Source of the DNA: Fibrobacter sp. UWB5
GTDB lineage: Bacteria > Fibrobacterota > Fibrobacteria > Fibrobacterales > Fibrobacteraceae
NCBI RefSeq assembly: GCF_002210295.1
Contig: NZ_MWQH01000001.1
Location: 682,001-746,000 of the forward strand
Length of the DNA stretch: 64,000 nucleotides
Direction: 5' to 3'
The number at the start of each line of letters is the position of its first letter. Position 1 is the first letter of the stretch. This document shows, one piece after another, positions 32,393 through 59,475 of this stretch. Below the pieces are notes generated by a model that ran no database searches, was not told the DNA's origin, and was given only the letters and a program-made list of their open reading frames with translations. The position numbers and the translations under genes were made by a program.

Positions 32393-34102
32393 ATGGATAT
32401 CAAAAAGATTCTTTTGGCTGGTTCGGCAGTGACCGCAATGGTTCTTGCCACCTCTTGTTCCAGTGACTCGTCTACGGAACCGGATCCTGCTGATCCGACC
32501 GTTTCTTCGTCTTCGGAAGGTGGCTCGAATTCGGACCCGACTTCGTCTGCTGGCGATACTCCTGCGACGGGTTCTTCGAGCAGCGTTAGCGGTGACGTTC
32601 CCAAATCTTCGGCTGCTGAAGTGGTTGATTCTTCGTACACCCAGATGGCGATTACCGAAATCATGTATAATGCTGACGATGGTTCCGCCTTGGAATGGGT
32701 CGAAGTGACAATCCAGAGTGGTCCGGATATCAGCAGTATGCTCGCTTCGGGCATGCGTTTGGACGGTGCGCTTTCCTATACGTTCCCGAACGAAGAACTC
32801 AAGAAGGGCGAATACATTGTCGTGACCAACGACAAGGATTTGTTCATGCAGACTTATCCCGAATTCAAGGGCCGTCTCTATGGTCCGTGGGATAATGATC
32901 CGAAGACTGGTGCTGTGGCCAAGCTTTCGAACGAAGGCGACGTGATTGACGTGAAACTGACGGGTGAAGGCGACGTGAGTTGCTCTTACAGCATGGAACC
33001 GCCTTGGCCGTCTCTTGCCAACGGCAAGGGCCGTACGCTTGTGTACAAGGGCGGCAACGCTGCCCAGGCAACCTCCTGGGGTGCAAGCAAGATTATGAAC
33101 GGTAATCCGGGTGTGGGCAACGATGAATGGCTCACGACTTCGAATATCCGCTTGAACGAAATCATGCCGACTGGTACGGGCGTCGCTGCCTGGGTTGAGC
33201 TCTACAATGCGGGTAGCGCCGATGTTGATGTGACAGGTTGGATTTTTGAATCCAAGATCCGTAAGGAAAAACTCACCATCAAGGCCGGAACGGTTCCTGC
33301 AAAGGGTTACCTTGTCTTGAACGCTGAAACCGATTTTAACGATAGCGAAGGTGCCGCAAAGGAACTGATTGTTAGCTCTATCGGTGGTTCTTATTACCTG
33401 TATGGCGCAACCGAAGGTGACGAATCCAGTTTGCTTTTGCCTTCTAGCGAACTTTCGAGCGGTGTGGTGGACTTGAGTGATGGCTCTACGGCTCAGGGGG
33501 CGCTTGTCGAAGCGACTCCGGGGGCTGCAAACTCCAAGCTTTATATTGGTGGCTTGGTCATTAGCGAAATTCACTACCACCCGAACGAAGAAGACTTGAA
33601 CGACGTGGAATTCCTGGAACTCAAGAATTTGTCTGAAACGCCCATTACGCCGTTTGAAAAACTTTCAAACGGAAACAGAGGTTGGAAGGTCGAAGGTATT
33701 AATTTTGAATTTGCTTCGACTGACGTGATTCCGGCTGGCGGTATTGTGGTGCTGTTCCCGGATTCCTTGCAGACCACCCCTGGTGCAGATAATTTGCGTA
33801 AGCGTTTTTCGATTGACGCTAGCGTGTTGATTAGCTTCTATAGCGGTAAGCTTTCCAACCGCGGTGAAACGATTGCTGTAAAGAAGCCTTACTTCTATCA
33901 GAAAGATACTTCGAACCCGCTTAATGACCAGTGGTACTACGATTGGTCCGATGCAACGCTCTATAGCGATAAGTGGAGCGGCAACGGCGTTGACTACAAG
34001 CGCGCGGACGGTTTCGGTTACAGTTTGCAGCGCAAGGACTTCACCACGATGGGTTATGAAGCTGCCGCTTGGACGGTTGACAAGCCGACTCCGGGTAAGT
34101 AA
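32393..34102 (+). CDS. Lipoprotein with three lamin-tail-like domains
   Basis: 569 aa. Lipoprotein signal (AVTAMVLATSCSSDSS), then a Ser/Asp/Thr-rich linker (~24-82). Three lamin-tail-like domains are marked by similar openings: ITEIMYNADDGSALEWVEV (~86), IRLNEIMPTGTGVAAWVEL (~252) and LVISEIHYHPNEEDLNDVEF (~387). The final part (~430-569) is Trp/Tyr-rich and ends with VDKPTPGK, which often closes such proteins. In other bacteria lamin-tail domains come with CotH kinases and are found on surface proteins; no CotH domain is seen here. It is probably the exported component of the VTC/DUF4956 cassette. Confidence 0.86.
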   Translation: MDIKKILLAGSAVTAMVLATSCSSDSSTEPDPADPTVSSSSEGGSNSDPTSSAGDTPATGSSSSVSGDVPKSSAAEVVDSSYTQMAITEIMYNADDGSALEWVEVTIQSGPDISSMLASGMRLDGALSYTFPNEELKKGEYIVVTNDKDLFMQTYPEFKGRLYGPWDNDPKTGAVAKLSNEGDVIDVKLTGEGDVSCSYSMEPPWPSLANGKGRTLVYKGGNAAQATSWGASKIMNGNPGVGNDEWLTTSNIRLNEIMPTGTGVAAWVELYNAGSADVDVTGWIFESKIRKEKLTIKAGTVPAKGYLVLNAETDFNDSEGAAKELIVSSIGGSYYLYGATEGDESSLLLPSSELSSGVVDLSDGSTAQGALVEATPGAANSKLYIGGLVISEIHYHPNEEDLNDVEFLELKNLSETPITPFEKLSNGNRGWKVEGINFEFASTDVIPAGGIVVLFPDSLQTTPGADNLRKRFSIDASVLISFYSGKLSNRGETIAVKKPYFYQKDTSNPLNDQWYYDWSDATLYSDKWSGNGVDYKRADGFGYSLQRKDFTTMGYEAAAWTVDKPTPGK

Positions 34103-34181
34103 AATGCCTAATTTACAGGTTGATAGCTTTTTATAAGCGTCCTGTAAATGCTTTATAATACATTTTTTGAAAAAAGTAAGT

Positions 34182-34206
34182 AAACCGCCCCTTTGGGGCG
34201 GTTTTT
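34182..34206 (+). terminator. Intrinsic terminator after lamin-tail gene
   Basis: Perfect 10-bp stem AAACCGCCCC (34182-34191) / GGGGCGGTTT (34195-34204), loop TTT, then T-run. Confidence 0.93.
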
Positions 34207-34236
34207 CTGTATGGAAAAATTTATTTTTATCGTGTT

Positions 34237-36009
34237 ATGAAAAAGAGTTTGTTTTTGGGTATTGCAGCGAGTGCTGCCGTTTTTGCAGCACCCATTTCGC
34301 TATCGGACGCCATTGCGATGGCAAAGACGAACAATTCGCAGATTAAGGCCGAAAAGGCCAAGGTCGAAATGGCCGAAAGTGGTCAGTCCGAGGCCCGTTC
34401 CCGTTTTATGCCCCAGCTTTCGCTGACGGCCAGCGTGACAAAGATAAACGACCCGATCTATATTGATTTGGGTCAAATCCAACAGGGGCTAAGTGGACTT
34501 GCAGACGGTCTTGCGACGGTTGGCCCTGCAGGGGTGTATTCCAAAGCTTATATCGATGCCTATAACAAGGCCCAGGCCGGTTACGAGCAGGCATATGCCG
34601 GTGCAAGGGCGCAAGGTCTGAGCGAAGCCGAGGCGAATGCCTTTGCCTTGGACAAGGTGGGTGGTTCTGCACAAGAAATCGCTCAACAGACGGCAGACAA
34701 GTATGCGGCTGACAGCAAGCAACAGCTTGATGCTGCAAAAGCGAAAATCGACGATGCCGATTTCCGCATGAAGGTGCAGGACGACGTGTTCTTTAATGCG
34801 CGCTTGACTGCTATTTGGCCGATTTTTACGGGCCTCAAGATTTATTCCGCCTACGATGCCGCCAAAGAAAACGTGAATGCCAAGAAGGCGGCCTTTGACA
34901 TGGCGCAAAACACAATCCTCATGGATGTGGCTACCAAGTACTTTACGCTTCGCCTGGCCGAAGAATTGACGGTGCTTCGCGAAAGCACCAAGAAGAACTT
35001 GGAAGAACACTTGGCCCGCTCCAAGAAACTGGAAGAAGGTGGCCAGATTAGCAAGGCGGAACGCCTGCGCGCCGAAGTGGCTTTAGCTGAGGCTGAAAAC
35101 GCGCTTGAAGATTCTTACCGCGACCAAACTCTTGCTCGCTTGGCTCTTGCAAGTCTGTTGCATACGGACACGAACATTACGGCTATCACTCCGGTGCTTG
35201 CTCCGGAGCAGACCTTGGCCATGGAAGAATTCAAGCAGCTTGCGATGGATAGACATCCGGGCCTGCGCCAGTTGCGCACCGAACGCAAGCGTAGCCAAGA
35301 TGCGGTGAGTGCTGCCCGCGCCGATTATTTCCCGACGGTAGCACTCTTTGCCTACAAGGAACTTTATACCCGCGACTTGACGCTCCTGGAGCCCGATTGG
35401 GCGGTGGGTGCCAAGATGCAATGGGACTTGTTCAAGGGCGGCGAGACTCGCTCCAAGGTGAGCAACGCGAAGGCTCTCGACCGTTCGCTTTCGAGCATGG
35501 AAGAGCAGACCATGGATAACATTGGCCTGCTGGTTGAAAAACGCTGGCGTGAAATGGAGCATGCCAAGAGCCGCTTGGAAAGCCTGAAGAAGACTCGCGA
35601 ACTTGCCGAAGAAGCGCACCGCAGCCAGACTTTGGCTTACGAAGCGGGCCTTGCCACGGGCTTGGATGTAGTGGATGCAGAACTTGCGCTTTCGCGCTTG
35701 CAGGTGGCTGACTTGAAGGCGCATTACGACGCGGTGGTCGCCTGGCTTGGACTTTTGGAAGCAAGCGGAGAAGTGGTGAATGCGGGCGAGATGCTCAAGA
35801 ACATAAAGCCTGTCGAAGAGACGAAGGCTGAAGAGGTCAAACCTGCCGAACCTGTTGCGGAACCTACAGCTGTTCCCGCCGCAGAGTCGAATGTCGTGGC
35901 GAACGATTCTTTGAACGTCATTGCGAACCCCGAAGGGGTGAAGCAATCTGCGCCAGCTGATTCTGCAGCGCCTGCGCCGGTTGATACAACGGCTGCTCCC
36001 GCAAACTGA
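34237..36009 (+). CDS. TolC-family outer-membrane efflux protein with Ala/Pro/Glu tail
   Basis: 590 aa. Signal peptide MKKSLFLGIAASAAVFA, then two outer-membrane-factor halves (~20-270 and ~280-510) starting with ISLSDAIAMAKTNNSQIKAEKA and with KAERLRAEVALAEAENAL in the helical part. An Ala-rich insert (~85-170) lengthens the first half. The last ~70 residues are Ala/Pro/Glu/Val-rich and disordered, not part of the usual fold. With the HlyD-type gene 21 bases downstream and two ABC-2 permeases it forms an export system. Confidence 0.92.
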   Translation: MKKSLFLGIAASAAVFAAPISLSDAIAMAKTNNSQIKAEKAKVEMAESGQSEARSRFMPQLSLTASVTKINDPIYIDLGQIQQGLSGLADGLATVGPAGVYSKAYIDAYNKAQAGYEQAYAGARAQGLSEAEANAFALDKVGGSAQEIAQQTADKYAADSKQQLDAAKAKIDDADFRMKVQDDVFFNARLTAIWPIFTGLKIYSAYDAAKENVNAKKAAFDMAQNTILMDVATKYFTLRLAEELTVLRESTKKNLEEHLARSKKLEEGGQISKAERLRAEVALAEAENALEDSYRDQTLARLALASLLHTDTNITAITPVLAPEQTLAMEEFKQLAMDRHPGLRQLRTERKRSQDAVSAARADYFPTVALFAYKELYTRDLTLLEPDWAVGAKMQWDLFKGGETRSKVSNAKALDRSLSSMEEQTMDNIGLLVEKRWREMEHAKSRLESLKKTRELAEEAHRSQTLAYEAGLATGLDVVDAELALSRLQVADLKAHYDAVVAWLGLLEASGEVVNAGEMLKNIKPVEETKAEEVKPAEPVAEPTAVPAAESNVVANDSLNVIANPEGVKQSAPADSAAPAPVDTTAAPAN

Positions 36010-45936: not shown

Positions 45937-47361
45937 TTACTTCGCGATTTTATATCTCAGCTTCAGGTCCTTGGCAGTCGGAACTCTGCCAGAGGCTTCG
46001 TGCTCATGTTCTTTAGAGAAGTGGTTGAGCTTTTGCGTTCCGTAGCCGGCTGCGCGAACAAACTGAGCTTCTTTGGCGAGTTCCACGGCCTTGGCCATCT
46101 GTTCGTCCGGATTGTTGATTTCAAAGTCCGGAACGATTCCCAAGTCATGGTAGCTATCCCAGTTCTTGTCGAAGCCTTGCAGGGCCGTCACTAGGGCGAG
46201 ACCTTCTCCGACTTCGGTCTGGATCACGAGTTGTCCGATTCCCTTTCCGTAAGTCAGCTGGCCCACGACCGGAACTTTGCGGTTTGCCGTCAGTGCCGAG
46301 AGCATGGTTTCGGCGCAGCTTGCCGATCCCGTGTCAGCCATAAAGACGTAGTAGCGGTTCTTGCCAATTCCGTCGCGTTCTGCGGTAACGGTAAGTGTAT
46401 CGAATTTCTGGAAATACTTCATGCCTCGGCCATCGGGAATGGAATCGACCGTGGCTTCGATATCGATCACGACGGTGTCGCCAGCAGAAAGCAGTTCTTT
46501 GGCCATGTTGGCGCACTGTTCGGTTTCGCCACCGGGGTTGTCGCGCAAGTCGATGATCGTGGAGGTGGCGCCTTCGGTCTTTTTGAGGGCTGCCACGAAT
46601 TCTCCATAGGAACCGCTGTCGCTAATCGAGGTCACGACAAATTCCTTAATCAGGATTACCGGAATGGAGTCTTGGTAAGTGAGCTTGACGGAGGGTTCGT
46701 TGTATTCGTCGATAGTCACTTTAATGCTAACCGGTTCCGAGTTGCGGGTGACAACGATGTTGATGACATCGTCTTTGTTGCCGGTGCACATGTTTTCGAA
46801 ATTGTATGCCGAAGTAATGTTAAGGCCATCTACTTGGGTCACGATGTCTCCGACCATCAAGCCGGCTTTTTGTGCCGGAGAACCCGGATAAATTTCGGTT
46901 ATAACCAAGTAGCGGGATGTGGAATCCAGCATTTCTTCAACTTCCGCGCCGATGCCTACGATGGATTCGGATTCCAGAATGCTGGAATAAATCTGGTCTG
47001 CGACAAGGGGGTCGAAATAACGGGTGAAGGGGTCGGCCATCTGGTTGTACATGTAGCACACGTCGTAGTAGTCTGCAGAACAGTAACCCTTGGTACGGCT
47101 GTCTTGGCTTGTTCCCTTGTTCAGGTAGACCTTGTAATCGTCGGCCAGTTCGTTACGCATGTGGGCGTAAATGTAGAACAGGTCGAGCATCTCATAATTG
47201 AAATAGAGTTCGGCTTCGTATTCGTTATTGATGTGTTCCATTTCGGGGAACAAGTCGGCCATAATGTCGCGCTCGTCCGACGAGCTGCTTACGGATTGCG
47301 AACAAGCCGAAAATAAAAATGGTATGGCGCCAAAAATGGCGAGTGTCTTTTTCAGTTTCAT
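45937..47361 (-). CDS. S41-family C-terminal processing protease lipoprotein (downstream copy)
   Basis: 474 aa. Lipobox FLFSAC (C20 area). A helical N-terminal part (~35-115), a PDZ domain (~135-215, PGSPAQKAGLMVGDIVTQVDGL) and the S41 catalytic domain (~225-420). The Ser is in GSASCAE and the Lys in TYGKGIG, 25 residues apart as in CtpA/CtpB-type proteases; DNPGGE is conserved. Likely trims or degrades envelope proteins. The ATG directly follows the TAA of its paralogue (TAAATG). Confidence 0.93.
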   Translation of the reverse strand: MKLKKTLAIFGAIPFLFSACSQSVSSSSDERDIMADLFPEMEHINNEYEAELYFNYEMLDLFYIYAHMRNELADDYKVYLNKGTSQDSRTKGYCSADYYDVCYMYNQMADPFTRYFDPLVADQIYSSILESESIVGIGAEVEEMLDSTSRYLVITEIYPGSPAQKAGLMVGDIVTQVDGLNITSAYNFENMCTGNKDDVINIVVTRNSEPVSIKVTIDEYNEPSVKLTYQDSIPVILIKEFVVTSISDSGSYGEFVAALKKTEGATSTIIDLRDNPGGETEQCANMAKELLSAGDTVVIDIEATVDSIPDGRGMKYFQKFDTLTVTAERDGIGKNRYYVFMADTGSASCAETMLSALTANRKVPVVGQLTYGKGIGQLVIQTEVGEGLALVTALQGFDKNWDSYHDLGIVPDFEINNPDEQMAKAVELAKEAQFVRAAGYGTQKLNHFSKEHEHEASGRVPTAKDLKLRYKIAK

Positions 47362-48696
47362 TTATTCCTCTCCTTCTATAATTGCGCCGCCCAAGTCTTT
47401 GTAACGGCGTAAAATCTGTGGCTCGTTTGCATCGGCTGCACTCTTTTTAAAGGCCGTCTTCGAGGAGCCCTTCTTGCCGTATTTGCTTTCGAGTGCGTCA
47501 AAGCCGCATTGCAGCGATGCTTCGGAACAAGGGTAGTCGGGAATGATTCCCTTTTTGTGGTAGGAATTTCCTTTGGGAGTCAGGAACTCCAGATTCGTAA
47601 TGAGCGAAAGTCCCCCGGCCATTGTCTTCCAGGTACTTTGGCCAATTCCCTTGCCGTAGCTGACTGTTCCTGCGATAGGAATTTCTGCGCCTTCTTGGAG
47701 TGCTACCGCAAAGATTTCAGCACAGCTTGCGCTCCCGCCATTCACGAGTGCCACGAATTTCTTTTTCTCGCCGGCGTCGCCCGGCTTGGCGACCACGGTC
47801 ACCTTGTTGTAAAGGGGCGTGCCGTCGCCTGCAAAGCTTCGCCAGGAGCGGGTTGAGATATTGCCCTTTTCCATGAACAAGTCTGCCATCGCGGTACAGT
47901 GATTTACGTGACCGCCCGGGTTCCCTCGCAAGTCAATGAGTCGGGGTGCCGTCGAGTTCCTGGTCGATTCCAGGTAAGTTGTGAGTTCTCCCAGCGTGCC
48001 GTTCTTCTTGTCGACGGTGTTCAGCTTGAATCCGGTAATGGTGATGATTTCGATTCCGTTCAAGGTGTCGACAAATACGGTCGGAGCGTAAACGTCTTCC
48101 TTGGTCAGTTCGTATGTGTTGGTGTCGCCCGCGTAGGCCACCGTGATCGAAATTTCCTTGTTTTGAGTCAGGACAGAATCGTAGATGTTGAATGCACGGT
48201 CGCCAGAAATTTCGACGCCGTTGACATTCAGGATGTTGCCGTAGCGGGGGATGCCTGCCCTGCCTGCCGGGCTTTCGGGATACACGCGGTAAATGACGAG
48301 CGGGTGCTCCATCTGGTTGAACTGCGTGTATTCCATGCCTACGTCGCCCGGTACAATGCTCGTGTTGATATGCGAGATTGCCGCTTCGCTTTTAGACGGC
48401 GGAACGTAACGGGTGTAGGGGTCGGACAGCTTGTTGTAGAGTTCGTTTACCGAATCGCCCTGTTCATCCAGCAGGGGCAGTTCGTCTTCGAACAGGTAAG
48501 TCTTTTGCAAAAGCCAGTAGTTGAACGAATATTCTGTTGGCGCCGGCGTAGAATCCACCGGCTCGAAAAAATCGCTACAGGCAGTGAGGAAGACGAGAAA
48601 AATGAGATGTGGGATGAGGAATGTGAAATGAGCAATTATTGAATTCTCATTAGTTATTTCACATTTCACATTACTCATTATCCTTTCTCCAACCAA
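47362..48696 (-). CDS. S41-family C-terminal processing protease lipoprotein (upstream copy)
   Basis: 444 aa if the first ATG (48696) is used; ATG 48678 is an alternative. PDZ-like domain (~130-200, PESPAGRAGIPRYGNILNVNG), S41 domain with GGSASCAE and SYGKGIG, Ser-Lys spacing 25. Paralogue of the following gene (same order and lengths). The N-terminal ~40 codons are odd: they come from an AT-rich, partly palindromic stretch (48600-48680) whose translation includes the hydrophobic FLIPHLIFLVFLTAC lipoprotein signal. This suggests an intergenic element was recruited as the signal sequence. Confidence 0.9.
   Translation of the reverse strand: MVGERIMSNVKCEITNENSIIAHFTFLIPHLIFLVFLTACSDFFEPVDSTPAPTEYSFNYWLLQKTYLFEDELPLLDEQGDSVNELYNKLSDPYTRYVPPSKSEAAISHINTSIVPGDVGMEYTQFNQMEHPLVIYRVYPESPAGRAGIPRYGNILNVNGVEISGDRAFNIYDSVLTQNKEISITVAYAGDTNTYELTKEDVYAPTVFVDTLNGIEIITITGFKLNTVDKKNGTLGELTTYLESTRNSTAPRLIDLRGNPGGHVNHCTAMADLFMEKGNISTRSWRSFAGDGTPLYNKVTVVAKPGDAGEKKKFVALVNGGSASCAEIFAVALQEGAEIPIAGTVSYGKGIGQSTWKTMAGGLSLITNLEFLTPKGNSYHKKGIIPDYPCSEASLQCGFDALESKYGKKGSSKTAFKKSAADANEPQILRRYKDLGGAIIEGEE
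48600..48680. repeat. Imperfect palindrome overlapping a signal-peptide region
   Basis: GAATGTGAAATGAG (from about 48619) is mirrored by CTCATTAGTTATTTCACATTTC (to about 48667) around a central GAATTC. Short units AATGTGAAATG and TCACATTTC are repeated. It lies at the 5' end of the S41 gene. Confidence 0.65.
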
Positions 48697-49746: not shown

Positions 49747-51639
49747 ATGGAATTAACCAAATCGCAGGAACGCCGTCTAGCATTTGTGGCTAGCCTCTTG
49801 AGTCTCAATCCCAACGATCCTACTGACCGAATTAAGGCACTCCGGCATCTAAACCTTGATGAAAACGGCTGCTTCCATGGTTTCCAATACTCCCAAGGCT
49901 TTATGGAATTCTTCATCTTCCTCGATGAAGACACTCCGCTCGAAAAGGTCGTTTCCCACCTCAATTCCGACCTGAAACAGCTCCAGATTGCCGTTTTCCG
50001 TACCAGCGACCCTCCTAATCCGTTCTTCATGTCGCTGCGCGAAGAAGCCGACCCCTGGGCTGTGAACAAGATTTCTGATGACGACGAAGACGAAGATGAT
50101 GATTCTCCGGCTAGTCGTCCGTACATGGAAACGCTCGAAATTACGGTTCTCCGTACCCGTGCGACCCGCGATATTACCGACTCCGAACTGGAACGCACCC
50201 TCAAGGATATGCGCCGCAAGCTCGGTATCTGGAAGAACGAAGTCAAGGCAAAACTCGAAATCATTGCCGAACATGACGATTTGACCCGCGATTTCCGCAG
50301 CGCCGACGACAAGCTCGAAATCGTGATGGATTCCGATCCGTTGCACTTGACCAGCGATCACGGCGAACTGTTCCTCGGTTTCTGCCCGATTCGCACGATT
50401 TTTGACTATCACGTGAACCTCGGTAAGCGTCTCAAGACCAAGCACAACATGGCTATCGTCTCGAGCAACATCCGTACTTACCTCGGCAACCTCACTCACA
50501 CGAACGCTGCCTTGATCGATGCCTTCCAGACCATGGAACGCAATGACGACCAGAACGTGAATGTGGACGACTTCCCGTTCCTGCATAACGGTATGACCCT
50601 TACCGGTGATGACCTGCGCCTCAAGGAACGCGACGGCAAGAAGGTTCTCTATATCGAACGTCCGAAGATTATTAACGGTGCCCAGTCCCTGTTCACCTAC
50701 GAACAGTACGCCAAGAAGAGCAAGAAGCCGGTGAACCCGCAGGTGCTCGTGAAGGTGGTGGTGCCGTATCCTGGTGCCGACAACTTCCTGAACCAGGTGA
50801 CCATGGCCAACAACCGCCAGAACCCGGTGTTCAGCTACCATCTGCGTGCTGCTGACGACCTGCAGTTCTTCATTTGGCAGCGTTACCAGGAAGAAGGCTT
50901 TACCTACGTTTATAAGGATGGCGTGCGCCTCAAGGCACGTACCCGTAAGCTCGAAGTGCGTATGCGCCCCGAACTTGCCAAGACCCTCTTCATGATGGAT
51001 GGCAAGCTCAGCGAATGCCGCTCCAGCGACTGCATTTTTGATAAGGAAACCCTGTACCAGCGCTGCTTCGGCGCGTTCGTGCGTGTGTCTCCGGACAAGG
51101 AACGCGACTTCGTGCGCAAGACCATCGCCTTTACCAAGGCATGGCAGCTCCTTAGCCGCTTGCCGATCAAGATTCGCCGCGTGACCCCGGGTAAGGGCGT
51201 GTCTATCGAAGCGAACGACGATAACCCGCTGACTCGTATCACTTGGAACGGCCGCCTCGAAGACAAGTTTATCTTCCGTAGCGCCGTGAAGGACCTGGTG
51301 GTGGCCCTTGCCCTGAAGCACTGGCTCATCTACGGTGACCCGATCCAGGATTTCGAATGGCTGGTCGAAAACGAACTCAACTTCAACGATTCCATCCTCA
51401 AGTATGCTTCCAAGATTTACACCGAAGACTTGAAGGGTATCCTGATTTCTGAATTCAAGGACAATCCGGCTTACTACGACACCATCACGACGATTGACAA
51501 GGATTCCGGTGAATCCGTGGAACGTCGCCTGTGGAAGGGCTTTGCCAATACCGCCACTTACGACAAGATGATGGATCTTCTGTGCAAGAAGAACCGCACC
51601 TGGGAAAAGTGCCGCGGCGGTATCGAAGTATTCCTTTAA
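49747..51639 (+). CDS. AIPR-family protein (abortive phage infection related)
   Basis: 630 aa. The AIPR core is recognised by RPKIINGAQSLFTYEQY (~305-321), followed by VLVKVVVPYP and VTMANNRQNPV (~350-362), the usual INGxQT...N-x-QNP arrangement. An acidic run (SDDDEDEDDD, ~108-117) lies in the N-terminal part. No transmembrane segment. AIPR proteins were named from lactococcal abortive infection systems and are often next to restriction or other defence genes; here it is monocistronic, flanked by an LRR gene and lipoproteins. A house-keeping role cannot be excluded. Confidence 0.85.
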   Translation: MELTKSQERRLAFVASLLSLNPNDPTDRIKALRHLNLDENGCFHGFQYSQGFMEFFIFLDEDTPLEKVVSHLNSDLKQLQIAVFRTSDPPNPFFMSLREEADPWAVNKISDDDEDEDDDSPASRPYMETLEITVLRTRATRDITDSELERTLKDMRRKLGIWKNEVKAKLEIIAEHDDLTRDFRSADDKLEIVMDSDPLHLTSDHGELFLGFCPIRTIFDYHVNLGKRLKTKHNMAIVSSNIRTYLGNLTHTNAALIDAFQTMERNDDQNVNVDDFPFLHNGMTLTGDDLRLKERDGKKVLYIERPKIINGAQSLFTYEQYAKKSKKPVNPQVLVKVVVPYPGADNFLNQVTMANNRQNPVFSYHLRAADDLQFFIWQRYQEEGFTYVYKDGVRLKARTRKLEVRMRPELAKTLFMMDGKLSECRSSDCIFDKETLYQRCFGAFVRVSPDKERDFVRKTIAFTKAWQLLSRLPIKIRRVTPGKGVSIEANDDNPLTRITWNGRLEDKFIFRSAVKDLVVALALKHWLIYGDPIQDFEWLVENELNFNDSILKYASKIYTEDLKGILISEFKDNPAYYDTITTIDKDSGESVERRLWKGFANTATYDKMMDLLCKKNRTWEKCRGGIEVFL

Positions 51640-51960: not shown

Positions 51961-53775
51961 ATGAGTTCTAAAAAGATTAACCTCAGAAAATCTCTTGCAT
52001 TTGCAACTGTATCGACCTCCTTGGCGATGGTTGCGTGCGATTTTAGTGCCGATACGACCGTCAAGGCTTCGGACGATCCGACACCCGGTCCGGTGTCCGA
52101 ATTGCCGGAAGGCGCCTTCTTGCAGGTAAATACGCTGGAAGATTTGCCGAACTGTACGCCGAGCCGCGAAGGCAAATCGGCTTACGTGAACATCAGCAAT
52201 TCCGTTTATGTCTGCTCCAATGAACGTTGGACCAAGGCGAGCGTGACCATCGATCCGATCGTTCCTCCGGAAGAAAGTTCTTCGAGCATCGGCGAAATTG
52301 TCCCGGAAACATCGAGTAGCGGACTTGTTCCGCCTCCGCCCCCGCCTCCGTATTATGACTGTTTCCAGACGTGGTACGGCACCGAAAGCGTTTATCGAAT
52401 CGAAACGGGCTTTGACAATGGTTCCGAAACTTCGGGTTACTGGTTCGCTTACGGGGACGACGCCGATGGCGGTGCGTCAAGAATCATCTGGCCTGTTCCC
52501 CCCGGAAACGAGTATGACGAAAATGCTTTTGACCCGATTATCGATCATTGTGGCGGCATTTGCGGCACCTATTATCTAGATCATGGCGGTAACTTGGTAT
52601 ATGATCCGTTCGTAGGCGTCGGCTTCAGTTTGGCCGGATACGATAATAACGGTATCATCACGGTGGTTGATGCCTCTAGCATGGGTGGCATTCGCATTAC
52701 CTATACGTCCGATGCTCCTGCCGTGCTGGAACTGGGCATGGGCGACTATATGGATCAGAAAGTGGGTTACGACGTTCCGTTCGTAACCCTCCCGAAGGCG
52801 ACTGCTCCGACCACGAAGGTGTTTACCTGGGCTGATTTCAAACAGGCCGGTTGGGGCTCGGGTAAGATCACTGGCGAAGAAGCCGCAACCATGCTTGCTG
52901 TAATCAAGTTCAAGATCCAGAGCAAGAGCGGTTCGACCGGTAGCTTCAACATCATGGCCATTGGTGCCTTTGATGAAACCTGCTCCAGCTATATTCCGCC
53001 GATGCCGCGCTCTTCTTCGAGCTTTGTCCCGCCGGAACCCAAGTCTTCTAGCAGTTTCTACGTGCCGTATTACGGCTTTGAAACTTGGTATGGTTACGAA
53101 GGCGTTTACAAGATTGAAACGGGTCTTGACGCCGGTGAAGATATGTCGGGTTACTGGTATGAATTCAACGATGCTGTTGATGGCGGCGAATCGAAGATTA
53201 TTTGGCCCGTTCCGAAGGGTACCGAATGGGACGACAATGCCTTGGATCCGATTATCGATTACTGCGCTGGCGTTTGCGGTACCTACCAGCTTGAACAGGG
53301 CAAAATGGACTACAACCCGTTTGTCGGTATAGCCTTCGATATTGCTGGCCCGGCAGATTACTGGGATGGCCCCGCTGTCGCGGCTGACGCCTCTGCAATG
53401 GGTGGCTTGTGCATCGCCTACACCTCTGACTTTGCTGCAAGCCTTGAATTAGGTCTCTCCGATGAAAAGGAAGCAGAAGTCGGTTACGATATTCCGTTTG
53501 CATCGCTCCCGAAGGCAACTTCCGTCGTGGTGAAGGATATTCCGTGGAGCAGCTTCAAGCAGGCTGGCTGGGGCACGGGTAAGATTACCGGTGAAGAGGC
53601 TGCTGCGATGCTGAAGAGCGTTCGCTTCAAGATCCAGGGCAAGGACGGTATGACCGGTAGCTTCAACGTGATGTCTGTGGGCGCCCTTGGTGGCGGTTGT
53701 TCTGCAGAACGCTATTTTACCGTTATTCCGACCGTAGATGTTGTTAAGCTTAATGAAAAAAAGATTGACCGTTAA
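51961..53775 (+). CDS. Two-domain surface lipoprotein, paralogue 1
   Basis: 604 aa. Signal with lipobox SLAMVAC (C26 area). A short conserved N-terminal unit (VNTLEDLPNCTPSREGKSAYV, ~60-95) with a Cys pair is followed by Ser/Pro linkers and two ~205-residue repeats (A ~135-340, B ~368-585). Each repeat shows F-x-T/D-W, ETG, GYWY/F, a DD-x-DGG-x-S-x-I-x-WP motif, D-x-I-I/D-x-C-x-G-x-C-G, and a final K-x-F-x-W-x-x-F-K-Q-A-G-W-G segment. The end of each looks like a galactose-binding jelly roll, so carbohydrate binding is a reasonable guess. Linkers are Ser-rich. No catalytic domain. Confidence 0.88.
   Translation: MSSKKINLRKSLAFATVSTSLAMVACDFSADTTVKASDDPTPGPVSELPEGAFLQVNTLEDLPNCTPSREGKSAYVNISNSVYVCSNERWTKASVTIDPIVPPEESSSSIGEIVPETSSSGLVPPPPPPPYYDCFQTWYGTESVYRIETGFDNGSETSGYWFAYGDDADGGASRIIWPVPPGNEYDENAFDPIIDHCGGICGTYYLDHGGNLVYDPFVGVGFSLAGYDNNGIITVVDASSMGGIRITYTSDAPAVLELGMGDYMDQKVGYDVPFVTLPKATAPTTKVFTWADFKQAGWGSGKITGEEAATMLAVIKFKIQSKSGSTGSFNIMAIGAFDETCSSYIPPMPRSSSSFVPPEPKSSSSFYVPYYGFETWYGYEGVYKIETGLDAGEDMSGYWYEFNDAVDGGESKIIWPVPKGTEWDDNALDPIIDYCAGVCGTYQLEQGKMDYNPFVGIAFDIAGPADYWDGPAVAADASAMGGLCIAYTSDFAASLELGLSDEKEAEVGYDIPFASLPKATSVVVKDIPWSSFKQAGWGTGKITGEEAAAMLKSVRFKIQGKDGMTGSFNVMSVGALGGGCSAERYFTVIPTVDVVKLNEKKIDR
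53203..53279 (+). repeat. 77-bp block shared with paralogue 2
   Basis: One mismatch to 55212-55288. It encodes the WPVPKGTEWDDNALDPIIDY part of repeat B; identity far exceeds that of flanking DNA. Confidence 0.9.
53625..53685 (+). repeat. 61-bp block shared with paralogue 2
   Basis: Identical to 55634-55694, coding for the KIQGKDGMTGSFNVMSVGA end of repeat B. Confidence 0.9.
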
Positions 53776-53802
53776 TTTTTAGGGATTATCCTTACAGAAG
53801 CG

Positions 53803-53843
53803 GCTCCCGGTTGCGTATAGAATTTGCATCCGGGAGCTTTTTT
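53803..53843 (+). terminator. Intrinsic terminator between paralogues 1 and 2
   Basis: GCTCCCGG (53803-53810) / CCGGGAGC (53830-53837) with a 19-base loop, then TTTTTT. Confidence 0.85.
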
Positions 53844-53846
53844 GTT

Positions 53847-53852
53847 TATATT
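53847..53852 (+). promoter_or_regulatory. Putative -10 box TATATT before paralogue 2
   Basis: TTATATTC just after the terminator T-run, 33 bases before ATG 53886, with AGGAGG in front of the start. Confidence 0.35.
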
Positions 53853-53885
53853 CATGGATGTCAAGTGTAAACAGGAGGAATTCAA

Positions 53886-55757
53886 ATGCGCGGGGATATG
53901 CTTTTGATGAAGGCTTTGCCTTTTGCCGTTCTTTCAGCATCGCTTGCCATGGTGGCTTGCGATTCCGGTTCTGATTCCGGTGATTCCCGTGATAATAACC
54001 CCGCGACGCCAGTGGACGTTGTGGACGATTTTTCTAGCAGCGATTCGATGAATACGGCAAGTGTCGAGACGGTTGAAGATTTGCCCAATTGTACTGAACG
54101 CCGCAACGGTAATTTGGCTGTCGTGCTTAGTGAAGACGCCATATACCAGTGTAGTGCAGGACGTTGGGCTAAAGTTACCGTGGTGCCGGAAAAGAATTCA
54201 TCTTCAAGTATAACGCCTTCGGGAACCCTGTCTTCAAGTTCTAGCAATGAAACTTCCTTGATATCGAGTTCTAGCGATAAAAATCCTATGACTTGGAGTT
54301 CGTCTTCGGAGTCTACTGGGGCCGCCCACTGTTTTGAAGATTGGGATGGCTACGCAATGGATTACCAGATTGCAACCGGCTATGACAATGGTTCTGGAAC
54401 GTCGGGTTATTGGTATTCCTTTGGCGATGACGCTGATGGAGGCATGTCGACGATTGTTTGGCCTGTTCCGGCAACCGAATCGCCCGATGTATTAGATGCG
54501 ATTATCGACTTTTGTGGTGGTGTTTGCGGAACCTTCGAACTTGCCAAGGGTTCTTTAACATACGACCCTTATGCTGGGGTGGGATTTAATATTGCAGGAG
54601 TAGATGAGAATGGCTATCCTACAACGGTAGATGCTTCGGCAATGGGCGGTATCAGTGTGACTTACTCCTCGAGTATGGGGGCGACCTTGGAACTTGGCTT
54701 GGGCGAAGAAATGGATCGCAGTATAGGCTACGACAACCCGTTTGTTGTACTTCCCAAAAACACAAATGGTACTGTGAAAGAGTTTAAATGGTCCGAGTTT
54801 AAACAGGCGGGCTGGGGAGACGTTGAGATTACCGGTGAAGAGGCTGCAAAAAAACTCGCGTCTATTCGCTTTAGAGTACAAGGCAAAGATGGCTCTAAAG
54901 GTGAATTCAATATTAAGGCGATCAAAGCGTATAATCCTAGTGATTGCAATAAGTACAATCTGCAAAAATCCAGCAGCAGCTTTGCACCAAAATCTAGCGG
55001 TAGTGTGAAGCCTAAATCTAGTAGTTCTGTGCCTAGGTCCAGCAGCAGTAGAGATGTTTCGGACAAGGTAGGGAAATGCGGGCAGTTTGAGACTTGGCGT
55101 GGTGACTATGGAATGTATCGAGTTGAAACGGGCTGCATTACCGAAAAGGAAAATGGCGGTTATTGGTATAGCTTTGATGACTACGTTGATGGTGGTCGCT
55201 CAAAAATAGTGTGGCCCGTTCCGAAGGGTACCGAATGGGATGACAATGCCTTGGATCCGATTATCGATTACTGCGCTGGCGTTTGCGGCAAATTTGAACT
55301 GAATAAAGGAACAATGACTTTTGATCCCTATGTTGGAGTCGCGTTTGATTTAGCTGGCACCGATGATAAGGGACGCCTCGTTGCAGTAGATGCCTCTGAT
55401 ATGGAAGGGATTTGTATCGCTTATTCAGCCGATGTTGGGGCTTCCCTAGAAATATCGTTTGGCGAAAAAAATGACATCGAGGAATTTGATTACGACGTCC
55501 CGTTTGTCACGCTAGCCAAAAGCACAAGTGGTACTGTGAAAGCGTTTAAATGGTCTCAGTTTAAACAGGCTGGCTGGGGACGGAACGCAAAAATTACAGG
55601 CGAAGATGCCGCCAAGAGAATTGTTTCGCTTCACTTCAAGATCCAGGGCAAGGACGGTATGACCGGTAGCTTCAACGTGATGTCTGTGGGCGCCTTGGGT
55701 GGCGACTGCTCTGGCTACGTGGCCGTTTGGGCAGATAAGAACGTGAAGAACTGGTAA
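53886..55757 (+). CDS. Two-domain surface lipoprotein, paralogue 2
   Basis: 623 aa. N-terminus MRGDMLLMKALPFAVLSASLAMVAC is nearly identical to paralogue 3 because of a shared 199-bp repeat. The N-terminal unit (VETVEDLPNCTERRNGNLAVV) and Ser linkers match the family; domains A (~150-355) and B (~395-610) keep GYWY, DDADGG/DYVDGG, WPVP and the Cys pair (FCGGVCG, YCAGVCG). Two blocks of domain B are nearly identical in DNA to paralogue 1, so this gene is a mosaic: start like paralogue 3, end like paralogue 1. Own promoter and terminator are likely. Proposed role: anchoring or binding of polysaccharide at the cell surface (inference). Confidence 0.88.
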   Translation: MRGDMLLMKALPFAVLSASLAMVACDSGSDSGDSRDNNPATPVDVVDDFSSSDSMNTASVETVEDLPNCTERRNGNLAVVLSEDAIYQCSAGRWAKVTVVPEKNSSSSITPSGTLSSSSSNETSLISSSSDKNPMTWSSSSESTGAAHCFEDWDGYAMDYQIATGYDNGSGTSGYWYSFGDDADGGMSTIVWPVPATESPDVLDAIIDFCGGVCGTFELAKGSLTYDPYAGVGFNIAGVDENGYPTTVDASAMGGISVTYSSSMGATLELGLGEEMDRSIGYDNPFVVLPKNTNGTVKEFKWSEFKQAGWGDVEITGEEAAKKLASIRFRVQGKDGSKGEFNIKAIKAYNPSDCNKYNLQKSSSSFAPKSSGSVKPKSSSSVPRSSSSRDVSDKVGKCGQFETWRGDYGMYRVETGCITEKENGGYWYSFDDYVDGGRSKIVWPVPKGTEWDDNALDPIIDYCAGVCGKFELNKGTMTFDPYVGVAFDLAGTDDKGRLVAVDASDMEGICIAYSADVGASLEISFGEKNDIEEFDYDVPFVTLAKSTSGTVKAFKWSQFKQAGWGRNAKITGEDAAKRIVSLHFKIQGKDGMTGSFNVMSVGALGGDCSGYVAVWADKNVKNW

Positions 55758-55784
55758 TTTTTAAGGATTATCCTTACAGAAGCG

Positions 55785-55825
55785 GCTCCCGGTTGCGTCT
55801 AGAATTTGCATCCGGGAGCTTTTTT
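55785..55825 (+). terminator. Intrinsic terminator between paralogues 2 and 3
   Basis: GCTCCCGG (55785-55792) / CCGGGAGC (55812-55819), then TTTTTT; same structure as at 53803. Confidence 0.85.
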
Positions 55826-55828
55826 GTT

Positions 55829-55834
55829 TATATT
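55829..55834 (+). promoter_or_regulatory. Putative -10 box TATATT before paralogue 3
   Basis: Copy of the box at 53847 within the 199-bp repeat, 33 bases before ATG 55868. Confidence 0.35.
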
Positions 55835-55867
55835 CATGGATGTCAAGTGTAAACAGGAGGAATTCAA

Positions 55868-57721
55868 ATGCGCGGGGATATGCTTTTGATGAAGGCTTTG
55901 CCTTTTGCCGTTCTTTCAGCATCGCTTGCCATGGTGGCTTGCGATTCCGGTTCCAATTCCAATGAATCTCGAAATGACAATCCGGTATTGCCGGAAAATC
56001 CGGTTGGCGACGGTTCTAATATCGCAGCTGTTGAAACGGCTGAGGACTTGATGAACTGTACCGAAAGCCGTGAAGGCAATATGGCTAAGGTGCTAAGCGA
56101 AAATGCCATCTACGAGTGTGTGGATGAACGTTGGAGCAAGGTAACTGTTATTGAGACGTTGCCGAGAGACACTTTGTCAAATGGGATTTCATCGAGTGGA
56201 ACTTCGTTGATTGAAATTTCGTCAAGTGAAACGTCGCCGAGTGAAAATTCTTCGGCTGGCGAAACACAGATGTCCAGTTCCTCGACGGATTCAAACGTTC
56301 CTTCGCCTGTAAAATCGGCGCATTGCTTTAAAGCGTGGGATCCTACGGCGTTCGAGTACTCGATTTATACGGGCTACGACAACGGTACTGAAACCTCTGG
56401 CTACTGGTACACTTATGGTGACGATTCCGACGGAGGTATGTCCACAATTACATGGCCGGTTGAAATGGACCCTCCTTTTATGGATGGCATTGATCCGGTT
56501 ATTGACCATTGCGGCGGTATTTGCGGAACATACATGCTCGACAAGGGAACCTTGTCATACGACCCGTTTGTTGCCTTGGGCTTTAACTTGGGTGGTGAAG
56601 AGACTCCGGGAAATCCCGTATCGGTCGACGCCTCGGCCATGGGTGGAATTGTTGTGACTTATACTTCCGATGCGCCAATCCGCCTCGAAATGGGACTTGG
56701 CGAAGCAAAGGACAAGCATATAGATTACGACAATCCGTCTGTTACGCTTCCGAAATCAGTTACGAAAACGGTCAAGGCTTTTTCGTGGAGCCAGTTCAAA
56801 CAGGCGGGCTGGGGCTCGAAGCAAGTCTCGGGTGAAGAAGCATCTAAAATCTTGGTCGCGCTCCATTTCGTAATCCAGGGCAAGGACGGTGCGAAAGGCG
56901 AGTTCAATATTATGAGTATCGACGCTTACAATCCAGGGGATTGTGCTGCATTTGTGCCTCCCGTCTATTCGTCTAGTTCTAAAAACATGAGCTCTAGTAG
57001 CAGTAAGCCTTCTTCAAGTTCCAGCAGTAGCAATGGAACGTCTGTTGTCATTAAGCCGGCCTACTCTTTTGAAACCTGGAATGGTGCCGAAGGCGTTGAA
57101 CAAATCATGACGGGATTTGATACGGATATGCAAGATGGGGGCTATTGGTATGAATATGACGATTCCGAAGATGGCGGCAAGTCGTCCATTGCATGGCTGG
57201 CACCTCTGGGCAATGAATATGATGAAAAGTCATTTCAGCCGGTAATCGATGTCTGCTCAGGTGTTTGTGGAACGGTCCAGCTGGACGCAGGTGACTTGCA
57301 ATATGATCCGTACGTAGGCATTGGCTTTGATTTGGCCGGTCATGATATAAATAGGAACCTTGTTCTGGCGGATGCCTCCGGCATGGGTGGCGTATGTATT
57401 GGATATTCTTCGGAGATGTCGTTCACGATTGAAATGAGCCTTGGTGAGGCCAAAGACAGGGAACTTGGATACGATATTCCGATTGTCAGAATGCCGAAGT
57501 CGTCTTCGTACGTTGTAAAGAAAATCCCCTGGAGTAATTTTAAACGGTCCGGCTGGGGAGGGGGCGAGAACGTTACGGGTGAACAGGCTGCCAAGATGCT
57601 CGGCTCGCTCAGGTTTAAATTCCAGGGTAAGGATGGCGTTTCGGCCAACTTCAACATTGTGTCGATTGGCCCCTACCTTAATGGATGGTGTGAGGAGTCG
57701 TTGGCGCCTGTGCTTCAGTAA
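55868..57721 (+). CDS. Two-domain surface lipoprotein, paralogue 3
   Basis: 617 aa. Same plan: lipobox SLAMVAC, conserved N-terminal unit (VETAEDLMNCTESREGNMAKV), long Ser/Thr/Glu linker (~95-145), domains A (~150-360) and B (~395-605). Domain A keeps GYWYTYGDDSDGG and HCGGICG; domain B is more divergent (EYDDSEDGGKSSIAWLAP, VCSGVCG) and ends with SWxNFKRSGWGGG-like sequence instead of FKQAGWG. It lacks the near-identical blocks that paralogues 1 and 2 share. No clear terminator separates it from the carboxyltransferase gene 134 bases downstream. Confidence 0.87.
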   Translation: MRGDMLLMKALPFAVLSASLAMVACDSGSNSNESRNDNPVLPENPVGDGSNIAAVETAEDLMNCTESREGNMAKVLSENAIYECVDERWSKVTVIETLPRDTLSNGISSSGTSLIEISSSETSPSENSSAGETQMSSSSTDSNVPSPVKSAHCFKAWDPTAFEYSIYTGYDNGTETSGYWYTYGDDSDGGMSTITWPVEMDPPFMDGIDPVIDHCGGICGTYMLDKGTLSYDPFVALGFNLGGEETPGNPVSVDASAMGGIVVTYTSDAPIRLEMGLGEAKDKHIDYDNPSVTLPKSVTKTVKAFSWSQFKQAGWGSKQVSGEEASKILVALHFVIQGKDGAKGEFNIMSIDAYNPGDCAAFVPPVYSSSSKNMSSSSSKPSSSSSSSNGTSVVIKPAYSFETWNGAEGVEQIMTGFDTDMQDGGYWYEYDDSEDGGKSSIAWLAPLGNEYDEKSFQPVIDVCSGVCGTVQLDAGDLQYDPYVGIGFDLAGHDINRNLVLADASGMGGVCIGYSSEMSFTIEMSLGEAKDRELGYDIPIVRMPKSSSYVVKKIPWSNFKRSGWGGGENVTGEQAAKMLGSLRFKFQGKDGVSANFNIVSIGPYLNGWCEESLAPVLQ

Positions 57722-57855
57722 CGGCATGGGTTCTTCCTACAAACTACTTGCATCTTACTTATTTAAACAAAAAGAAACAAAAGTCGTTGACTAGCGCAAC
57801 GGCTTTTTCTAATTTTGGCTACGAAAATCTTACAAGTACAGGAGTTCTTTACAAA

Positions 57856-59475
57856 ATGTGGAACGAAAAGTATATCGCTAAGCTGGATAGCTACCTGGCC
57901 CAGGCCCAGGCAGCCGGTGGCGCTGCCCGTGTCGATAAGCAGCACCAGTCCGGAAAGTGCACTGCCCGCGAACGCATGGAAATGCTGTTCGACGAAGGTT
58001 CGTTTGTTGAAGTCGGTGCACTCCGCAAGTCGAGCAACCGCGTGCTCAAGGAAAGCAAGGTCGTCCTGGGTGACGGCGTCGTGACCGGTTACGGCAAGGT
58101 GAATGGCCGTCTGGTGTTTGCCTCTTCTCAGGACTTTACGGTGGGTGGCGGCTCCTTGGGCCAGTGCCATGCCGAAAAGATTTGCCGCGTCATGGACATG
58201 GCTGTGGAAGCCGGTGCCCCGTTTGTTGCCATGAACGATAGTGGTGGAGCTCGTATTGACGAAGGCGTGTTCTCGCTCGCTGGCTATAGCGCCATCATGG
58301 CCCGCAACGTGTGGGCTTCCGGCGTGATTCCTCAGATTGCCGTGATCATGGGCCCCTGCGCTGGTGGCGCCTGCTATTCTCCGGCTCTCAGCGACTTCAT
58401 TTTCATGACCCAGAACACCAGCCAGATGTTCTTGACTGGCCCGGCTGTCGTGAAGCAGGTGATGGGTGAAAACATCACCGCTGCCGACCTCGGTGGCGCT
58501 CCGGTGCATACCTCCAAGTCCGGCGTGGCTCACTTCATGTACGAAGACGACAAGAAGTGCCTTGAAGGTGTCCGCAAGCTCCTTAGCTACTTGCCGCAGA
58601 GCAACCGCAAGGAATCTGCCGAATGCAACTGCAAGATTGCCGAAGCCGCCAAGAACGACGAAGGCTTCTTCAAGAAGCTGTTCTCCAAGTCCGAATCGAA
58701 CGAAGTGGCCGCTTCCTTCGACAACAGCGCTTCTATCCAGGACATTGTTCCGGATAACTACAAGCAGGCCTACGACGTGAAGTCCGTGATTGCGGCCTTT
58801 GCCGATGCCGACAGCTTTTTTGAAGTGCAGAGCGACTGGGGCAAGAACGTGGTGATCGGCTTTGCCCGCCTGAACGGCGAAGCGATCGGTATCGTCGCTA
58901 ACCAGCCGAAGGTGCTCGCCGGTTCCTTGGACGTGGACGGTTCCGACAAGGCTGGCCGCTTTGTCCGCTTCTGCGACGCGTTCAACATTCCGCTCCTCGC
59001 CCTCGCAGACGTTCCGGGTTACATGCCGGGTTCCAAGCAGGAATACTCGGGCATTATCCGCCACGGTGCAAAGCTCCTTTACGCCTTTGCCGAAGCGACC
59101 GTGCCGAAGGTGACGCTCATTCTGCGTAAGGCTTTCGGTGGTGCTTACATCGCCATGAACAGCAAGGACGTGGGGGCCGACTACGTGTTCGCCCTCCCGA
59201 TTGCCCAGGTGGCCGTGATGGGTGCCGAAGGTGCCGTGGAAATCATCAACAAGAAGGAAATCGCTGCTGCTCCGGATCCGGCTGCTGCTCGCGCCCAGTG
59301 CATCGCCAAGTACGAAGAAGAACTGATGAACCCCTACGTTGCTGCCTCCATGGGCGTGGTCGACGAAGTGATTCACCCGGCCGATGTTCGTAAGCGCCTC
59401 ATTACCGCTTTCGATGCCTTGAAGACCAAGGAACAGAAGAGGCACTGGAAGAAGCACGCCAACATCCCGCTTTAA
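57856..59475 (+). CDS. Acyl-CoA carboxylase carboxyltransferase subunit
   Basis: 539 aa from ATG 57856; upstream in-frame codons to 57748 do not match the family. It begins WNEKYIAKLDSYLAQAQAAGG, with GKCTARERMEMLFDEGSFVEV and two crotonase-like halves carrying NDSGGARIDEG, GPCAGGACYSPALSDF and VLRKAFGGAYIAMNSK. This is the propionyl-CoA carboxylase beta / methylmalonyl-CoA decarboxylase alpha type. In a succinate- or propionate-forming bacterium it could carboxylate propionyl-CoA or decarboxylate methylmalonyl-CoA with a biotin protein; no biotin carrier or membrane decarboxylase subunit is in the window, so direction is open. Confidence 0.94.
   Translation: MWNEKYIAKLDSYLAQAQAAGGAARVDKQHQSGKCTARERMEMLFDEGSFVEVGALRKSSNRVLKESKVVLGDGVVTGYGKVNGRLVFASSQDFTVGGGSLGQCHAEKICRVMDMAVEAGAPFVAMNDSGGARIDEGVFSLAGYSAIMARNVWASGVIPQIAVIMGPCAGGACYSPALSDFIFMTQNTSQMFLTGPAVVKQVMGENITAADLGGAPVHTSKSGVAHFMYEDDKKCLEGVRKLLSYLPQSNRKESAECNCKIAEAAKNDEGFFKKLFSKSESNEVAASFDNSASIQDIVPDNYKQAYDVKSVIAAFADADSFFEVQSDWGKNVVIGFARLNGEAIGIVANQPKVLAGSLDVDGSDKAGRFVRFCDAFNIPLLALADVPGYMPGSKQEYSGIIRHGAKLLYAFAEATVPKVTLILRKAFGGAYIAMNSKDVGADYVFALPIAQVAVMGAEGAVEIINKKEIAAAPDPAAARAQCIAKYEEELMNPYVAASMGVVDEVIHPADVRKRLITAFDALKTKEQKRHWKKHANIPL

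Follow-up and report, generated by a model that had tools for sequence, protein, structure and literature searches.

How do three neighbouring lipoprotein genes come to be almost identical over some stretches and strongly diverged over the next, and what might such proteins do? We take up this question for a stretch of 64,000 nucleotides (nt) from Fibrobacter sp. UWB5 (the window), in which three tandem, intact open reading frames (ORFs), here called P1, P2 and P3, encode proteins of 604, 623 and 617 amino acids (ORF listing) and are bracketed by a conserved AIPR gene on one side and a carboxyltransferase gene on the other (Table 1). Each protein consists of a lipobox-type signal (TVSTSLAMVAC in P1), an N-module, a Ser/Pro linker, and two domains of ~205 residues, whose alignment reveals invariant motifs including GYW, DGG.S.I.W and C.G.CG. 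A Prosite-like pattern for the lipobox and its Cys finds the signal in 11 of 12 genes; the remaining one had been read from an internal ATG. The hairpins that follow P1 and P2 are strong terminators, so each gene looks like a cassette of its own. We consider it probable that this is a variable surface-lipoprotein locus, whose cassettes are reshuffled by homologous recombination both within the genome and from other strains or species.

The window itself contains the first evidence. The original prediction described a 199-bp repeat at the heads of P2 and P3, 1982 bases apart and with two mismatches; both the coordinates and the exact mismatch count hold. The repeat spans a stop codon, a strong terminator hairpin, the leader and the signal peptide, while the promoter box also ascribed to it stands less firmly, a promoter scan having found promoter-like matches in no excess over shuffled sequence. 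The near-identical P1/P2 blocks reported amid diverged DNA are likewise there: in domain 2, one block (55212-55288 in P2) agrees at 76 of 77 bases and another is identical over 61 bp, set in domains with only 66% identity as a whole. None of 20,000 nucleotide permutations and none of 20,000 codon permutations reaches the 77-bp block; at silent sites alone the block gives p = 0.002, uncorrected for the 231 pairs tested, and the comparison with relatives makes a stronger case for exchange. P2 had been read as a fusion of one relative's beginning with another's end, which is true in part: its second domain is its own, apart from two short blocks of P1, and the clean chimera lies in a related genome.

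That genome, RUG10152 (hereafter G056), is a metagenome-assembled genome (MAG) with two genes, A and B, at the same site; in this and the following comparisons each genome represents one species, so that all of them are made across species. Genes flanking the locus are 95% identical between G056 and the window genome (G000; Fibrobacter, 3.36 Mb), with an even synonymous divergence (dS) of 0.24-0.26, and the 61 kb of synteny between the two is mostly 82-98% identical in 500-bp windows. Gene A compares with P1 piece by piece: the N-module has a dS of 0.24, as in the flanks, which we read as vertical descent; domain 1 is a different allele (dS 0.87, 72% nt identity); and the last two thirds of domain 2 have a dS of 0.055, read as recent exchange. 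At the 77-bp block, identity falls to 75% between flanks of 98-100%, so either P1 in G000 or A in G056 was converted there.

Gene B combines the head of P3, domain 1 of P2 and a diverged, P3-like domain 2. Its first 150 codons differ from those of P3 at a single replacement site and at no silent site (dS 0); past a junction of ~45 bp, it matches P2 through the remainder of domain 1 (~99%, dS 0.04), and from a conserved Cys ahead of the linker onward it resembles P3 (~74%). In a domain-unit tree, domain 1 of gene B groups with that of P2, and the approximately unbiased (AU) test rejects joining it to that of P3 (p 0.0005); for the N-module, placing B with P2 is not rejected (p 0.16), an uninformative result because it costs about one site to place P2 next to B. 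The region between A and B has the tail of P1 on its left and the head of P3 on its right, joined via the 199-bp repeat, exactly as a crossover between two such repeats, with deletion of P2, would leave it, or as would the start of the reverse event, an insertion of P2.

Single genes are therefore composed of dS classes of about 0 and 0.04 (exchanged), 0.24 (vertical) and 0.85-0.87 (replaced), and this alternation of ~0, 0.24 and 0.9 between flanks that are even at ~0.25 points to recent exchange plus replacement by distant alleles. The same contrast is seen in 60-bp windows, where the standard deviation of identity is 2.7-3.9 in the flanks versus 12-21 in the cassette, and where no flanking window falls below 80%, against 12 to 20 of about 30 in each gene. 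Other relatives have mosaics of their own. Domain 1 of G094 is identical to that of G096 at 411/411 nt and then at 148/195 (76%), the remainder of the gene following G093; G061 matches G096 at 388/396 positions and then at 165/216 (76%). These alignments demonstrate, at the level of sequence, mosaic genes, a junction at the 199-bp repeat and recent exchange between species. Selection alone, by which the identical blocks would be constrained stretches of old paralogues that never exchanged DNA, could draw on the conserved motifs that the blocks hold, such as DP(I/V)ID.C.G(V/I)CG; however, the identity reaches silent sites and non-coding DNA (the 199-bp repeat; dS 0-0.05 beside 0.24 and 0.9) and includes the 411 nt shared by two species just before a drop to 76%. 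Identity at silent and intergenic sites refutes this explanation, to which we give next to no credence.

Copy number at the site has also changed. Across 13 genomes, the counts are 3/2/2/1/1/1/1/1/0/0/0/0/0: three genes in G000, two in G056 and G058, one in G091, G061 (where the gene has lost one domain), G096, G093 and G094, and none in G032, G055, G019, G075 and G033. The empty sites align to both cassette edges, and their comparison revealed neither an integrase nor an obvious target duplication. Fixed copies with high identity over whole genes, named beforehand as the observation that would speak against exchange, were looked for across species and did not occur. Recent duplication plus gene conversion, as first proposed, is thus supported, and the relatives add a copy number of 0-3, chimeric genes, and exchange across species. 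Repeats as similar as the 199-bp pair can mislead an assembler, and G056 is a MAG, which raises the question of whether repeats were collapsed or mis-joined in assembly or binning; yet every reading frame is intact, the locus lies within a contig of 1.03 Mb from an assembly that is 100% complete, mosaics of the same kind occur in independent assemblies of several species, and G056 has private differences at both junctions. We hold such an artefact to be very improbable.

A different question is whether the genes vary within a culture by a program, through silent cassettes or inversions, as in classical switching systems. Surface-type lipoproteins that are mosaic and have common 5' ends would suit such a program, but its usual machinery was not found in G000. 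A search for a silent donor archive gave none above 68% identity, the sole match elsewhere in the genome being a pair of genes on contig C7 (67-68% nt); inverted repeats that could bound invertible segments were weak or short, and none was convincing; and the scan for phase-variable tracts returned short imperfect repeats only, with no homopolymer or dinucleotide tract. Each copy is, moreover, intact and has a start and a signal of its own. The locus therefore looks like population-level shuffling of modules; programmed switching is improbable, and the likeness to antigen-varying families that had been proposed is not supported. Two degenerate patterns found no viral relatives in IMG/VR. The gene comEC is present in G000, but it was detected also in 10 of 14 control genomes and so shows nothing about the route of DNA entry.

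What the reshuffled modules do has to be judged largely from their predicted fold. Whole proteins P1–P3 gave nothing above the cut-off against Pfam and NCBIfam, and the domain profile gave no significant match to PDB sequences; in hmmscan searches of the domains against Pfam, run at E<=1, CIA30 (PF08547) matched 2 of the 10 domains weakly (best E 0.0058, short of the curated cut-off). AlphaFold models were built for domain 2 of P1 (predicted local distance difference test, pLDDT, 70) and domain 1 of P2 (pLDDT 80; predicted template-modelling score, pTM, 0.80); the two are not fully independent because they were built on the same ten-sequence alignment. They match the carbohydrate-binding module (CBM) CBM11 of Clostridium thermocellum (1v0a) at Z 10.7 (143 residues aligned, root-mean-square deviation 3.3) and 13.3 (153 aligned, 3.0), respectively, and CIA30/NDUFAF1, the top match by Z, at 12.5 and 14.4, with CBM29, CBM30 and CBM4 also among the matches. 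The domain has, accordingly to these models, a predicted CBM11/CIA30-like beta-sandwich fold.

Of 80 genomes of the genus, 79 contain the domain family, and several of them have many domains each. On contig C7 of G000 (L063, 4324-5274 and 5406-6353), two very similar single-domain secreted homologues, possibly another recent duplication, lie adjacent to each other between two genes of glycoside hydrolase family 8 (GH8) and carry weak Por-type secretion tails, below the curated cut-off. The domain profile also gave a weak partial match to the C-terminus of the neighbouring GH8 enzyme, which was not used. Taken together, the predicted fold, the genus-wide family and the GH8-flanked homologues with their Por-type tails make a carbohydrate-binding, fibre-related role the most likely one, and we favour it with some reserve. 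Ligand variation, the other likeness that had been proposed, is made plausible by the predicted CBM fold of the domain, and the relatives, whose sets of modules differ from one to the next, probably differ in how they stick to plant fibre.

Recombination could also be real while the domains are structural or assembly-factor-like, of the CIA30 type, their variation answering phage or protist predation or host immunity and not plant glycans. The top structural match by Z is CIA30/NDUFAF1, the two Pfam matches are weak CIA30 ones, and exposed surface proteins are common phage targets; against this, CBM11, CBM29, CBM30 and CBM4 make up most of the remaining top matches, homologues lie between GH8 cellulase-type genes, and the two patterns used found no relative in IMG/VR. 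We regard this alternative as unlikely.

Several observations weigh against a reshuffled set of surface-exposed, sugar-binding modules. Pfam CBM_11 (PF03425) has no match to the domains at the threshold given above, the sole match of that model in G000 being an ORF on contig C6, and since the closest other fold, CIA30, is that of an assembly factor, fold alone is no proof of sugar binding. Asp is residue +2 after the lipid Cys in every gene in which the motif was found, and in E. coli this residue holds lipoproteins in the inner membrane, a rule that may not be Fibrobacter's. The ratio of nonsynonymous to synonymous divergence (dN/dS) is ~0.2-0.3 for most domain pairs versus 0.02 in the flanks, with no sign of positive selection on average; the proteins change faster, which does not prove positive selection. 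Identity is uneven in patches elsewhere in the 61 kb as well (e.g., 34.0-35.0 kb), so recombination is not unique to the P1–P3 locus. At 32393-36009, which holds a Lamin-Tail-Domain gene and an outer-membrane efflux (OEP) gene, identity to G056 swings from 82% to 99% between neighbouring 500-bp windows, and near position ~41600 of the window G056 has ~3.5 kb extra, the alignment offset jumping from -2400 to +1100.

Returning to reshuffling by homologous recombination, we propose the following course. Each gene would act as a self-contained cassette of leader, lipoprotein signal, N-module, linker, two CBM11-like beta-sandwich modules and terminator. Unequal crossover at the 199-bp intergenic/signal repeat would add or remove whole genes, domains would be swapped at the low-complexity Ser/Pro linkers and at conserved domain edges, and gene conversion between the tandem paralogues would leave short tracts inside domains, while homologous loci of other strains or species would supply incoming DNA and distant alleles. 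We infer that the mechanism is of the RecA type and that there is a route of DNA entry, and, for the products, surface display, binding of plant polysaccharides and changed binding specificity.

Table 1. Positions of the P1–P3 genes, their parts and the boundary genes in the window.
Feature	Position	Strand	Basis
AIPR protein (PF10592), upstream boundary gene	49747..51639	+	Pfam match; core gene, 78/80 genus genomes
P1, two-domain lipoprotein (signal peptide, N-module, Ser/Pro linker, D1, linker, D2)	51961..53775	+	intact ORF, lipobox-type motif
P1 domain 1, distant allele in G056	52354..52986	+	alignment
P1 domain 2, modelled; predicted CBM11/CIA30-like fold	53065..53703	+	structure model
77-bp block common to P2	53203..53279	+	alignment
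61-bp block, identical to P2 55634-55694	53625..53685	+	sequence
199-bp repeat, copy 1	53773..53971	+	sequence
Terminator hairpin, P1/P2 gap	53800..53845	+	-25.8 kcal/mol, z -5.6
P2, two-domain lipoprotein	53886..55757	+	intact ORF
P2 domain 1, like G056 gene B from 54376 to domain end; second model, CBM11/CIA30-like	54324..54947	+	alignment, model
P2 domain 2, mosaic with two P1-type blocks	55077..55712	+	alignment
199-bp repeat, copy 2	55755..55953	+	sequence
Terminator hairpin, P2/P3 gap	55782..55827	+	-25.8 kcal/mol, z -4.8
P3, two-domain lipoprotein; head as in G056 gene B	55868..57721	+	intact ORF, alignment
P3 domain 1	56318..56944	+	domain alignment
P3 domain 2, 74-76% nt to second domains of G056 B and G091	57059..57697	+	alignment
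Carboxyl transferase (PF01039), downstream boundary gene	57835..59475	+	Pfam match

Both boundary genes are widely conserved across the genus. AIPR is a family named for phage resistance; nearly all full-length copies of the gene here have 90-100% protein identity, unlike a typical mobile defence gene. Between it and P1 (51676-51800) lies a dispersed repeat of ~100 bp with two hairpins (GCGACCAAAGA...TCTTTGGTCGC), which has seven more partial copies in G000 (74-85%), is present too in G094 and G058, and lies likewise upstream of gene A in G056. Read by eye, the translations of two adjacent lipoprotein-type ORFs at 45937-48696 resemble PDZ/S41 protease paralogues. A second variable locus occurs in other genomes of the genus (L028, L030, L033, L034, L036, L041, L042), where identity falls to 60-80% in another two-domain member of the P1–P3 family, next to a flank at 85-100%.

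Among described systems, babA, babB and babC of Helicobacter pylori are paralogues encoding glycan-binding outer-membrane adhesins, with chimeras formed by gene conversion near the 5' end and loci that carry a gene in some isolates and none in others (PMC4552749). P1–P3 are similarly surface-type paralogues with chimeras and with loci occupied or empty among relatives, their binding being predicted only, and the features expected of bab- and Opa-like families are seen in them: segmental near-identity among paralogues that extends to silent sites, and differing mosaics and copy numbers in relatives. The bab genes, in contrast, occupy separate loci, encode outer-membrane proteins and phase-vary through CT repeats, whereas P1–P3 are tandem two-module lipoproteins, swapped by domain, without such repeats. 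With CBM11 and CBM30 of Fibrobacter and Clostridium cellulases the modules share a predicted beta-sandwich (Z 13.3 to the C. thermocellum CBM11) and the context of the same lifestyle; they differ in having no Pfam CBM_11 match and no attached catalytic domain, and in standing as a pair on a lipoprotein. F. succinogenes also has non-catalytic CBM and fibro-slime proteins, which are secreted, paralogous and proposed for fibre attachment, their function being unclear (PMC3079729). P1–P3 are like these in being paralogous, non-enzymatic and possibly involved in fibre attachment, with different domains. In the literature searched we found no report of mosaic exchange among those proteins, and no paper that deals with gene conversion among surface proteins of Fibrobacter.

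Fibrobacter needs close contact with fibre, and its mode of attachment is unsettled. The present analysis adds a previously unnamed family of CBM-like lipoproteins, with one locus at which, by sequence comparison, modules are demonstrably swapped between relatives, and the swapped modules allow a direct test of whether they bind different polysaccharides. Tentatively, and as a possibility that we rate below even, the locus may be a module-swapping system that continually reshuffles the fibre-binding specificities of the Fibrobacter surface, both within a species and among gut species that live together, with gene heads and Ser/Pro linkers as the sites of exchange. If this is true, adhesin mosaicism, best known from pathogens, would extend to a cellulose-degrading commensal, and the changing target would be the plant cell wall, not the host.

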